A stretch of DNA of 64,000 nt from Williamsia sp. (lineage in GTDB: Bacteria > Bacteroidota > Bacteroidia > Chitinophagales > Chitinophagaceae). Shown piece by piece: positions 11,084 to 51,637 of the stretch. The position numbers and the translations under genes are program-made. The notes below the pieces were generated by a model. It saw only the letters and a list, made by a program, of their open reading frames with translations. It searched no databases and was not told where the DNA came from. The number at the start of each line of letters is the position of its first letter. The stretch's first letter is position 1. The stretch lies in assembly GCA_015069695.1 (NCBI GenBank), contig JADCRZ010000018.1, forward strand, positions 1 through 64,000, given 5' to 3'.

Positions 11084-11126
11084 AAAAACTTTCTTCCTTG
11101 CAGAATTAATCTATATTCGCCGCGAT

Positions 11127-11290
11127 TTGGTTTGCATTTAAATTATGCAATTAAAAGGGAAACCGGTGTGAGTCCGGTGCTATCCCCGTAGCTGTAAGCT
11201 CCCCCAGTTGTTCATCTCCATGCCACTGTCGTTCACGCACGATGGGAAGGCCTGAACAATGGAGCAAGCCAGAAGACCTGCCAGATCCCA
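11127..11290 (+). ncRNA. Cobalamin riboswitch
   Basis: gggaaaccggtgtgagtccggtgctatccccgtagctgtaagc ... gaaggcctgaacaatggagcaagccagaagacctgcca. Confidence 0.93.
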
Positions 11291-11397
11291 ATTTATTCAT
11301 TCAAGGCTTTCGGGTGAAAAGCAGGGAATGTAAGCGTCGAAAGACATTTATATTTCTGTTTCTTTATTTTCCTGAAAGCAGTCACTAAAATTTTCAC

Positions 11398-39930: not shown

Positions 39931-40437
39931 ATGAGCCTTAAAACCTTGTTACACCACCTGTGGGAAGCAATTGACAAAGTTTTCAAGAACGCTTCCAAAG
40001 AAGTCCGCGAAGTTGCCCTTCCCGTTGCCGTAAAAGCTGTTGAATCATTAAAAACCCTGATCGACCTGGACCAGTCGGATATGGTCGGGAAAATAGCCGG
40101 TCCCAGGGGTGTGGTATTTGAAGATAAGGTAAGACAACTCCTGCCCAAGATCCTTCTTGAGTTGAAACTCGTCGAAAAATGCGCCAGCAAAGAGACAACG
40201 GAAGAGATCATTGCCTGTGCCGTCAGTGAACTGCGCCTAAGCTCCGACAGGGCCAAAGACGCTTTTTTCCACAGCATCAGCGCCCTGCTCCTCAAAGACT
40301 TATCAGATGGCAAATTAAGCTGGTCGGAATGCGTGGAGCTGGTTGAGTTCTATTACAAGAGCCAGCACAAGCCAGCAGAAGACAAGCAGGAAACAGAACA
40401 ACAACCTGAGCAACCGAAGGAATTGTCTGAACCATGA
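39931..40437 (+). CDS. Hypothetical helical protein
   Basis: 168-aa ORF; its last two codons and stop (gaa cca tga) lie inside palindromic element A. Confidence 0.65.
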   Translation: MSLKTLLHHLWEAIDKVFKNASKEVREVALPVAVKAVESLKTLIDLDQSDMVGKIAGPRGVVFEDKVRQLLPKILLELKLVEKCASKETTEEIIACAVSELRLSSDRAKDAFFHSISALLLKDLSDGKLSWSECVELVEFYYKSQHKPAEDKQETEQQPEQPKELSEP

Positions 40438-40495
40438 TTTACAGGATGGGAGGGATTCGGGGATCGAATCCCTCCCATCCTGTAAATCATGGTTC
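40429..40495. repeat. Palindromic element A (31-bp perfect arms, 5-nt loop)
   Basis: gaaccatgatttacaggatgggagggattcg-gggat-cgaatccctcccatcctgtaaatcatggttc. Confidence 0.93.
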
Positions 40496-40506
40496 TAGAC
40501 TGACAA

Positions 40507-42396
40507 TCACGCCACGTCGTTCACCAGATCTACCTCTACCCGGAGGTTTTCGATGATAAAGTCCTGGCGTTGCTGGGTGTTTTTGCCCATATAGTATTCG
40601 AGCAGCTGCTGGATATGGGTGTCGGGCATCATCATGACGGGTTGTAAGCGCATGTCGGGACCGATGAACCTTCCAAACTCGTCGGGACTGATTTCACCCA
40701 AGCCTTTGAAGCGGGTGATCTCCGGTTTGTTGCCCAGCTTTTTGATGGCTGCCTGTTTTTCGGCTTCGTCGTAACAATAAATGGTTTCCTGTTTGTTGCG
40801 CACCCGGAATAAGGGTGTTTCCAGGATATATACATGCTTGTTCTTGACCAGGTCGGGAAAGAACTGCAGATAGAAGGTCATCATCAGCAACCGGATATGC
40901 ATGCCGTCTACATCCGCATCGGTAGCGATGATGATGTTGTTGTAGCGCAACCCTTCATATCCCTCTTCGATGTTCAGCGCGTGCTGCAAAAGATTGAACT
41001 CTTCGTTTTCGTATACGATCTTCTTTGTCAGGCCAAAGCAGTTCAGTGGTTTACCGCGCAGGCTGAACACAGCCTGTGTTTCCACGTTTCTGGCCTTGGT
41101 GATAGAGCCGCTGGCCGAATCACCTTCGGTGATAAAGAGGGTGCTTTCTTTTTGCTTTTCAAGAATATTGTTTTTATCCTTTCCGGCTGCCTCATCATTG
41201 TAATGATAGCGGCAATCGCGCAGTTTCTTGTTGTGCAGGTTGGCCTTTTTTGCGCGTTCGTTGGCCAGCTTCTTGATGCCTGCCAGCTCTTTGCGTTCAC
41301 GCTCACTTTGTTCAATGCGCTTTTTTAAGGCTTCTGCAGTTGCCGGATTTTTGTGGAGGTAATCGTTTAGATCCTTTGCCAGGAAATCACCGATAAAGTT
41401 GCGCATGGAAGGACCGTTCTCGTAAACGACCTGCGAGCCCAGCTTGGTTTTTGTCTGGCTTTCAAAAACCGGTTCCTGCACACGCACGGAAATGGCAGCA
41501 CAGATGCTGGCACGGATGTCTGCTACATCATAGTCTTTCTTGTTGTAGAACTCCCGGATGGTTTTTACAAAAGCTTCGCGGAATGCGACCAGGTGGGTTC
41601 CCCCCTGCGTGGTATACTGTCCGTTTACAAAGCTGTAATATTCTTCCCCATACTGGTTTTCGTGGGTGATTGCCACCTCAATGTCTTCCCCCTTCAGGTG
41701 GATGATGGGATAGCGGATCTGCTCTTCATCGGTTTCGCGCACCAGCAGATCGAGCAGTCCGTTCTTGCTGACATACCGTTTGCCGTTGAAGTTGATAACG
41801 AGTCCGGCGTTCAGGTAGCAATAATTCCAGATCTGGCCTTCCAGGTGTTCGTTGATATAATGAAAATTGCGGAATACGGTTTCATCCGGGATGAATGTGA
41901 CCTCGGTTCCGTTCTCCTGGTCTGTTTTTGCTTCCCGGTATTCTTTGGTCAGCAGCCCCCGCTCAAATTCAGCCGTTTTTTCCCGCCCGTCGCGGTAAGC
42001 GGTTACTTTAAAATAATTGCTGAGGGCATTAACGGCCTTGGTACCCACGCCGTTCAGTCCCACGCTTTTCTGAAACGCCTTGCTGTCGTATTTGGCGCCG
42101 GTGTTGATCTTGCTAACCACTTCCACCACCTTGCCCAGCGGAATACCCCGTCCGTAGTCGCGCACGGTCACTGTTTTTCCATCAATGGTAATATCTACAT
42201 GACGGCCATAGCCCATGGTATGTTCGTCGATGCAGTTGTCTATCACTTCTTTGATAAGCACATAGATACCATCGTCCGGGCTGCTGCCATCCCCCAGCTT
42301 GCCGATGTACATACCGGGGCGCAGGCGGATATGCTCCCGCCAGTCGAGGCTTTTTATACTTTCTTCGGTGTAATCAAACTGATTTTTTTCTGCCAT
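40507..42396 (-). CDS. parE: DNA topoisomerase IV subunit B
   Basis: [34 protein letters not shown]...[15 protein letters not shown]...[12 protein letters not shown]. Confidence 0.93.
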
Positions 42397-44113: not shown

Positions 44114-44163
44114 ACTAAAAAAGGAAAGGGTTGCTGTAGATCATGCAACCCTTTCCTTTTTTG
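44114..44163. terminator. Bidirectional terminator
   Basis: aaaaaaggaaagggttgc...gcaaccctttccttttttgg. Confidence 0.88.
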
Positions 44164-48787: not shown

Positions 48788-51400
48788 ATGATAAAATTTC
48801 TGGCCCTCTTTGCAGCCTCCGGTTTCTTTTTTTCTGTGGCTGCACAAACCAATTCCAGCAATGACCAGTATCCTTTCCGCAATCCATCCCTTTCCATCGA
48901 AGCCCGGGTGAGCGACCTGGTGTCAAGGCTCACGCTGGAAGAAAAAGTAGGACAGATGGTAAATGGAGCGCCCGCCATTCCGCGGCTGGGCGTACCTGCA
49001 CACAACTGGTGGAACGAGGCCCTGCATGGCGTGGCCCGCACGGGGTATAACGTGACCGTATACCCGCAGGCGATCGGCATGGCAGCTACGTTTGATACGG
49101 CCACCATGTACCGCATGGCTGATTATACAGCAGAAGAAGGAAGGGCTATTTACAACGACAACGTGCGCAAAGGCAAGCCTGGCGGCCAGTACGAAGGACT
49201 CACCTACTGGACGCCCAATATCAATATCTTCCGCGATCCGCGCTGGGGGCGCGGACAGGAAACCTATGGCGAAGATCCTTATCTCACCGGCATGATGGGC
49301 AGGGCATTTGTAACCGGCCTGCAGGGCAATGACCCTCTTTACCTCAAAGCCGCTGCCTGTGCCAAGCACTATGCCGTGCACAGCGGTCCTGAACCCAGCC
49401 GCCATACGTTTGATGTATCACCCAGCAAATACGATCTGTGGGATACGTATCTGCCGGCTTTTCATGAGCTGGTGGTACGCGCCAAAGTAGCAGGCGTGAT
49501 GTGCGCTTACAATGCCATCGAAGGACAACCCTGCTGCGGCAGCGACCTGCTGATGACAGACATCCTGCGCAACCAGTGGAACTTTACCGGCTATGTGACT
49601 TCCGATTGTGGGGCCATCACTGATTTTTTCCGGTTTCACAAAACACACCCCGATGCAGAAAGCGCTTCTGCTGATGCCGTGCTGCACAGCACCGATGTTG
49701 ATTGCGGCAACGCTTATCCTGCCCTGGTAAAAGCAGTAAAAGACGGAAAGATAACCGAACAGCAGCTGGATGTCTCGCTCAAACGCCTGTTCACCATCCG
49801 CTTCCGGCTGGGCCAGTTTGATGCCAACAACAAGTACAACAGCATTACCATGGCTTCGCTGGAAAGTGAAGCGCACAAAGCACAGTCCCTCAAAATGGCG
49901 CGGCAGTCTATTGTCCTGCTCAAGAACGAAGGCAACTTGCTGCCCCTGCGCAAAACCCTGAAAAAGATCGTTGTGCTGGGGCCCAATGCCGACAATCCGG
50001 TTACAGTTTTGGGCAACTACAATGGCAAGCCGTCCCGGATCATTACCCCCCTGATGGGAATCAAACAGGCTGTCGGCAGCGGCACAGAAGTAGTTTACCA
50101 GCAGGCCGTCAATTTTGTAAACGATACCATCTTTGAAGCAGAGGACATCAGCAACCAGTTCTCCATCGACGGGCACAAAGGCTTCCGGGCAGATTACTTT
50201 CAAAACCGGGAACTCAGCGGCGCACCTGTGCTCACGCGCACCGAAGAAAAGATAGACTACGACTGGAACGGCGGCGTACTGATGGCCGGCAAATTTCCGG
50301 CAGAGAACATGTCTGTGCGCTGGACGGCCGATTATACGCCTGATAAAGACGGCAGCATCACACTGGAACTGGGTGGCGATGATGGGTATCGGCTGCGCGT
50401 AGACAGCGCCACAGTGATCAACGACTGGGGCATCCACCGTTTCCGCTCTGCCAAATACACGCTGCAAACCCGGCGGGGCATGCGGGTTCGCATTACCATC
50501 GAATACTTCAACCGGGATGCCGGGGCCTCTGTGCGCTTTGGTGCGGGGCACTGGATCAAACCCGATCCTGCAGCCATTGCTGCCAGTGCAAAAGATGCGG
50601 ATGCCATCATCTACATCGGCGGCATCTCTCCGGTACTGGAAGGAGAAGAGATGGGTGTAAACCTGCCGGGTTTCAGCGGCGGCGACCGGACCTCCATCGC
50701 CTTGCCTGCCGTGCAAACCAACCTGATCAAAGCACTCAAGGAAACCGGTAAACCTGTTGTGTTTGTTATGATGACAGGCAGCGCCCTTGCCATTCCCTGG
50801 GAAGCAGACAATATACCTGCCATCGTAAATGCATGGTATGGCGGCCAGTTTGCCGGAACAGCCCTCGCCGATGTGCTGTTCGGCGACTACAACCCAGCCG
50901 GCCGGCTGCCTGTTACTTTTTACCGCAGCGAAAAAGACCTGCCGGCTTTTGATGACTATACCATGGAAGGACGTACCTATCGCTATTTCAAAGGCCAGCC
51001 CTTGTTTCCGTTCGGATACGGACTAAGCTATACCAGCTTCCGCTACAGCGCACTCTACCTCGGCGCCGGGACAACCCGGGCTACCGCTGTAACAGCCACT
51101 GTACGGGTAACCAATACCGGCAAGCGGGACGGAGAAGAAGTAGTTCAACTGTACGTATCACACCCCGGCCAGCAGGGCAAAGCACCGCTCAGGGCGCTGA
51201 AAGGATTCAAACGCATAGCCCTCAAAGCAGGAGAAACCAAAAATCTTACTTTCATGCTGACGGAGGAAGACATCTCCCTGGTTGACCCCAACGGAACGCT
51301 CAAAAAAGCCCCCGGCACGCTGCGCATAAGCATCGGCGGTAGTCAACCCACAGAACAGGCAAAAGCAGCGGGGACAGTAGTGGAGGGAACGGTGAAGTAG
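48788..51400 (+). CDS. Glycoside hydrolase family 3 with PA14 insertion
   Basis: CAKHYAVHSGPEP, GYVTSDCGAI, PA14-like GFRADYFQNRELSG...GDDGYRLRVD. Confidence 0.93.
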   Translation: MIKFLALFAASGFFFSVAAQTNSSNDQYPFRNPSLSIEARVSDLVSRLTLEEKVGQMVNGAPAIPRLGVPAHNWWNEALHGVARTGYNVTVYPQAIGMAATFDTATMYRMADYTAEEGRAIYNDNVRKGKPGGQYEGLTYWTPNINIFRDPRWGRGQETYGEDPYLTGMMGRAFVTGLQGNDPLYLKAAACAKHYAVHSGPEPSRHTFDVSPSKYDLWDTYLPAFHELVVRAKVAGVMCAYNAIEGQPCCGSDLLMTDILRNQWNFTGYVTSDCGAITDFFRFHKTHPDAESASADAVLHSTDVDCGNAYPALVKAVKDGKITEQQLDVSLKRLFTIRFRLGQFDANNKYNSITMASLESEAHKAQSLKMARQSIVLLKNEGNLLPLRKTLKKIVVLGPNADNPVTVLGNYNGKPSRIITPLMGIKQAVGSGTEVVYQQAVNFVNDTIFEAEDISNQFSIDGHKGFRADYFQNRELSGAPVLTRTEEKIDYDWNGGVLMAGKFPAENMSVRWTADYTPDKDGSITLELGGDDGYRLRVDSATVINDWGIHRFRSAKYTLQTRRGMRVRITIEYFNRDAGASVRFGAGHWIKPDPAAIAASAKDADAIIYIGGISPVLEGEEMGVNLPGFSGGDRTSIALPAVQTNLIKALKETGKPVVFVMMTGSALAIPWEADNIPAIVNAWYGGQFAGTALADVLFGDYNPAGRLPVTFYRSEKDLPAFDDYTMEGRTYRYFKGQPLFPFGYGLSYTSFRYSALYLGAGTTRATAVTATVRVTNTGKRDGEEVVQLYVSHPGQQGKAPLRALKGFKRIALKAGETKNLTFMLTEEDISLVDPNGTLKKAPGTLRISIGGSQPTEQAKAAGTVVEGTVK

Positions 51401-51585
51401 TCTGAACCATGATTTACAGGATTTAAAGGATTCCGGGTATTGGGACTGGTGGATAAGCATGATAGTTAATAATTTTATACCTCCGTCATCAGCTGATCAT
51501 TCAGTCATTAAGCCGGATGAAACATCCCTGCCTATCAGCATTCCAATCCCCGGAATCCTTTAAATCCTGTAAATCATGGTTCAGA
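51401..51585. repeat. Palindromic element B (37-bp perfect arms, ~111-nt inner segment)
   Basis: tctgaaccatgatttacaggatttaaaggattccggg (51401-51437) and its exact reverse complement (51549-51585). Confidence 0.93.
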
Positions 51586-51637
51586 CAGAATCTGTATTTT
51601 GCACCCTCCATCTTACTTATCAAATAGATTTTACCAT

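Follow-up and report, generated by a model that had tools for sequence, protein, structure and literature searches.

Element A, a long perfect hairpin between convergent genes

In the window, by which we mean the whole 64,000-nucleotide stretch of DNA analysed here, an ORF and a DNA topoisomerase IV subunit B-like gene converge on a palindrome that we call element A (Table 1). The first-pass annotation had described a 31-bp hairpin with exact arms and a 5-nt loop, located between convergent genes, extended outward by a gtct/(a)gac dyad with a one-base bulge, devoid of a T tract and providing the stop codon of the upstream ORF, and all of these points were confirmed. A scan of the window for perfect hairpins (loops of 3 to 10 nt) found the 67 bases at 40429-40495 to be the longest one, with a runner-up of 18 bp that is 13 bp shorter, while the longest hairpins in ten first-order Markov shuffles of the window measured 9-10 bp. 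Outside of the arms, GTCT (40425-40428) pairs with AGAC (40497-40500), leaving the T at 40496 bulged, and the whole palindrome is predicted to fold into one hairpin of -63.7 kcal/mol (RNA parameters). No T tract was seen 3' of either arm on either strand, so that element A does not look like an intrinsic terminator, in which a run of T comes after a GC-rich stem. The last codons of the upstream ORF, GAA CCA TGA, lie within the left arm, and the topoisomerase gene on the reverse strand ends 6 nt past the outer extension.

Table 1. Features at and around element A, and the second copy of the repeat in the window
Feature	Coordinates	Strand	Remarks
168-aa upstream ORF without a known family	39931..40437	+	ends in KELSEP and a stop; TGA at 40435-40437, inside the left arm
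Element A, complete palindrome with its outer GTCT / (T)AGAC	40425..40500	.	sequence; folding
Left arm, 31 nt	40429..40459	+	starts with the family end motif GAACCATGATTTACAGGAT
Loop GGGAT	40460..40464	+	
Right arm	40465..40495	+	exact reverse complement of the left arm
Topoisomerase IV subunit B-like gene, convergent	40507..42396	-	stop codon 11 nt from the right-arm GAACC, on the outer side
Element B, second copy in the window	51400..51586	.	179-bp core; end motif as in element A

The arm motif GAACCATGATTTACAGGAT has four matches in the window, compared with 0.03 expected. Two other structured segments were noted in the window: a perfect 18-bp stem closed by a 10-nt loop at 44117-44162, which is well above chance and has no family end motif, and a cobalamin riboswitch at 11111-11299 (117.7 bits; gathering score, 31.5), which is the sole Rfam match above threshold in the window.

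A dispersed palindromic family with copies at stop codons

A search of the 7.66-Mb genome with the 19-nt arm, allowing up to 3 mismatches, gave 267 matches (128 forward and 139 reverse), while the reversed pattern used as a control gave none in the same genome. Element A is thus one of about 130 copies, well over a hundred, of a dispersed palindromic mobile repeat. The first-pass annotation had proposed such a repeated element and reasoned that an ordinary terminator would have no copies beyond element B or would keep its placement and sequence in relatives: the 267 arms bear out the proposal, and the element is missing from two sites of a congener, where the gene stops at its own TAA.

The family was characterised on 100 loci (1.40 Mb) taken around most of the listed arm matches, together with some filler contigs. 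The outer end of the copies, TGTCT(T)GAACC[A/T]TGATTTACAGGAT, is near-invariant: in a logo of 180 arms, the boundary falls at TGTCT(T) and the sequence from GAACC to AGGAT hardly varies, except for an A or T at position 5. Arms were found in 76 islands with outward inverted ends, 58 of which are simple two-arm pairs and 18 multi-arm. The pairs span 49 to 669 bp, many being about 137 bp long, which places element A near the short extreme, and an alignment of 32 copies measuring 120-160 bp shows a single long stem and, within it, a small hairpin. Nested copies, in which a second element starts within the stem of the first, were seen in L078 (at 7499), L106, L117 (at 9313) and L120 (at 12938), and the nested junctions often lie directly after GGGATT or GGGAAT (11 junctions listed). 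Many contigs of this genome, G000 (for example L093, L101, L104, L113 and L119), end inside arms beside a common flank, ..CTTCACGCCCCTTTCAAAAGGCCGGGGGGAAGAA, which means that a longer multi-copy repeat abuts some of the elements and breaks the assembly.

The copies sit at stop codons. A long ORF reads into 92 of the 180 arm ends and stops between -10 and +15 nt, as compared with 3.4% for random positions. The arm itself provides the stop at 51 of the 180 ends, either at +2 (cTGAacc, 25 ends) or at +9 (CC[A/T]TGA, 26 ends). Since two of three frames hit a stop inside the arm by construction, these +2 and +9 counts alone do not prove targeting, which is instead shown by the pile-up of stops just upstream of the arms (-10 to -3) and by two empty sites. 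Leaving aside islands at the edges of loci, 70 remain, of which 55 have a stop codon within 12 nt of one end or more, 21 of them at both ends. The same tendency was found for arms in other genomes, with 20 of 105 ends from 61 foreign loci lying within 12 nt of a stop codon, compared with 2.0% of random positions.

The empty sites come from the one congener that was compared (G001), a diverged genome with most aligned stretches 64-77% identical and an incomplete assembly (84% complete), in which no arm copy was found. At L082, where both junctions resolve, the gene ends in ALSEP and a stop, from GCACTTTCCGAACCATGA, while its congener counterpart ends in VLS with TAA; at L097, where the left junction resolves, VGKLSEP and a stop corresponds to VGKI and a stop. 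A third candidate, L107, was rejected as its upstream gene is not an orthologue, which leaves L082 and L097 as the only empty sites. By sequence comparison, these two sites show that the element inserted at the stop codon of the upstream gene, an event that would leave the host gene with a short new ending encoded by the arm (LSEP or V, then a stop). Element A, with its KELSEP end, fits this pattern of the family and may have changed the tail of its own upstream ORF, for which no clear orthologue was found (only matches of 24-25% identity in 2 of 28 relatives). The original stop was not enriched beyond the far end of the copies (7 versus 6 of 17), and no convincing target-site duplication was detected among the 58 simple elements: out of 72 offset/length combinations, a single one exceeded the flag (4 versus 0.36, k=4).

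Covarying arms and RNA-level explanations

The inverted pairs carry about 15% stem mismatches on average (median stem of 46 pairs, 68 elements), yet their sequence differs from copy to copy. When 54 elements that do not overlap were compared, the two arms of an element agreed at the variable positions 5, 19-22 and 34-36 well above what was obtained with shuffled pairings (z of 3.1 to 5.7), and the outer flanks (-8 to -5) of the same 54 elements showed no such agreement. Either the arms are copied from each other, or their pairing is under selection.

Selection could act on RNA if the repeat were a bidirectional transcription terminator or an mRNA 3'-end stabiliser, as a strong hairpin between convergent genes and the many copies at gene ends might suggest. 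We consider this highly improbable: beyond the missing T tract, the congener lacks copies, insertion took place at pre-existing stops, and the sequence of the outer 19 nt is conserved, something that a terminator would not require. Moreover, when stem mismatches were oriented by host transcription in 31 elements, there was no G-T excess (47 G-T versus 56 A-C), a result that argues against the stems being constrained at the RNA level alone. The same symmetry weighs against a family of structured small RNA genes, a reading to which the conserved stem-loop in many copies might lead but which we regard as close to negligible, given also that genes read the arms as their 3' ends and that no Rfam family matched the element at gathering threshold, the sub-threshold matches being mostly miRNA hairpin models. 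A secondary 3'-end role alongside mobility is possible.

GxxExxY and IVP genes between inverted arrays

Exact matches to the 23-mer end were found in 27 stretches belonging to named genomes of Bacteroidota, Chlorobiaceae, Ignavibacteria and Poribacteria; with up to 2 mismatches, the end is present in 47 of 395 genomes of the phylum, mostly at low copy, the genome studied here having 189. In 7 of 64 foreign loci picked for the arm alone, the arm adjoins a gene for GxxExxY (PF13366, PD-(D/E)XK nuclease superfamily), one of these genes being cut by the locus end, and no GxxExxY gene lies within the 2-8 kb examined at the other 57. This is about 50 times the chance expectation of 0.14 in 60 distinct loci, a figure derived from the gene density of the sampled genomes on the assumption that genomes average 4.3 Mb. 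Five ORFs of 60 aa or more were listed between arms separated by 230-1600 bp, and both of those with arms close at each end encode GxxExxY. At L231, the arms enclose the gene; at L280, on a viral contig and the only GxxExxY locus on such contigs, the element fits exactly between two genes, the left of which (by eye, a restriction-modification methylase) ends inside the left arm, and the next of which begins just after the right arm. In the genome of element A, no intact GxxExxY gene was found: a remnant of 62 C-terminal residues lies between TGTCTTGAACCAGGATTACACGG-type arms (L139) and is all that is present, which counts against GxxExxY as the mover of the roughly 130 copies. A second arm type, GAACCAGGATTACACGGATCCACGGATTACAGGATT, occurs in the same genome (L101, L105, L121, L124, L134 and L139) and surrounds the GxxExxY remnant. 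A structure model of GxxExxY built from 4 alignment rows was unusable (mean pLDDT 41.5), and the sequence match to T7 endonuclease I (3cae) was not significant (E=1.5).

GxxExxY loci picked irrespective of their flanks (29 of 30 scored) had a median flanking inverted-repeat score of 15.0, compared with 9.5 in 110 same-locus controls, and 21 of the 29 scored above 12, a few of these not being token arrays. The repeats are arrays of 8-10-nt tokens (such as TTAACCACAGAGGCACAGAGACACAGAG) that differ across loci and match within a locus. Genes for 23S_rRNA_IVP, a four-helix protein, likewise lie between inverted arrays, here of 7-9-nt tokens (L281-L310), with 24 of 25 loci scoring above 12 compared with 3 of 100 controls (5 of the 30 loci were dropped for short flanks). 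Both genes are thus usually flanked by inverted short-repeat arrays, a link for which we found no description in open-licence papers. At least one GxxExxY gene was present in 74 of 117 sampled genomes of the family and at least one IVP gene in 72 of 98; IVP genes, common among relatives, are absent from the genome studied here. Ends of IVP arrays lie within 15 nt of a stop codon in 19 of 48 cases.

What may move the repeat, and how it compares with known elements

We propose, with a probability of roughly 0.6, that element A belongs, as a non-autonomous member, to a GxxExxY-carrying family of palindromic mobile elements, and that the copies in this genome owe their movement to a GxxExxY protein whose gene has since been lost or was not assembled. 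The outer 23 bp or so, being conserved in sequence, would be the recognised end, and the rest of the stem would be kept mainly as self-complementarity. In the relatives that carry a gene, inverted arms of identical or similar build flank this single small gene, whose product we infer to cut or resolve the folded end and thereby drive movement, with copies inserting where genes end, usually at the stop codon itself, and leaving no visible target duplication. A small nuclease-like gene may thus move the repeat, although, to our knowledge, PD-(D/E)XK proteins are not usually transposases, which counts against GxxExxY as the mover. Element A itself has a 5-nt loop and no gene, and shares only its ends with the elements in which inverted arrays carry GxxExxY.

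The element may also be mobile as proposed and yet owe its movement to another enzyme, GxxExxY and IVP genes being passengers. The genome without an intact GxxExxY gene, the lack of a gene in most foreign copies and the presence of IVP, an unrelated four-helix protein, in similarly built elements would all agree with this, but we find it less likely in view of the approximately 50-fold excess of GxxExxY at arms and of the two closely flanked ORFs that both encode it. A separate reading is that of a REP/REPIN element moved by RAYT, a Y1 tyrosine transposase. REPs are located near stop codons, and the family resembles REPINs in its inverted palindromic pairs, its tens to hundreds of copies in one species and its intergenic placement just past stops. 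Against this, no Y1_Tnp gene (PF01797) was found in the genome by a search that was positive in 5 of 14 control genomes, the candidate protein is a different one, and the arm ends read TGTCT(T)GAACC rather than bearing a GTAG or CGTC tag at the hairpin base. The stems also greatly exceed the 20-40 bp reported for REPs (PMC3733652). Altogether, we hold a REP/RAYT origin to be improbable; this reading, like that of a terminator, fits worse than a mobile element of the GxxExxY family.

Like MITEs, the copies are short and non-autonomous, have terminal inverted repeats and are amplified in a species-specific manner; unlike MITEs, they show no detected target-site duplication and no linked DDE-type transposase, and the arms of element A almost meet. 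The GxxExxY genes enclosed by like arms (L231, L280 and the L139 remnant) may point to autonomous relatives. ERIC, Correia and Rickettsia palindromic elements are 100-150-bp repeats in transcribed intergenic sites, with RPEs entering coding sequence. The family resembles them as a palindromic interspersed repeat and differs in that the stop codon is its preferred place. Finally, 23S rRNA intervening sequences are likewise inserted segments that hold a small gene of the IVP type, but the IVP elements described here lie between protein genes, and element A is gene-less. The family works like REPINs and MITEs, but no Y1 transposase, end tag or target duplication was found that would place it with either.

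More tentatively, and at somewhat less than even odds, GxxExxY could define a class of minimal mobile elements that spans phyla and has yet to be described, the four-helix IVP protein doing so for parallel elements. Each would consist of one gene of about 125 aa between inverted arrays of 7-10-nt tokens. A folded palindrome would then be moved by a PD-(D/E)XK nuclease and not by a transposase, to stop codons and without target duplication, spawning gene-less palindromes such as element A, with the arms being copied from each other at each round.

GxxExxY and IVP are common annotations without a known function, and their inverted short-repeat setting gives them a testable role. The covarying paired arms raise a concrete mechanistic question, namely whether arms are copied or folding is selected. 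As for the preference for stop codons, it shows how a mobile repeat can find room among closely spaced genes or within operons and do little damage, even as it alters the last residues of the host protein.
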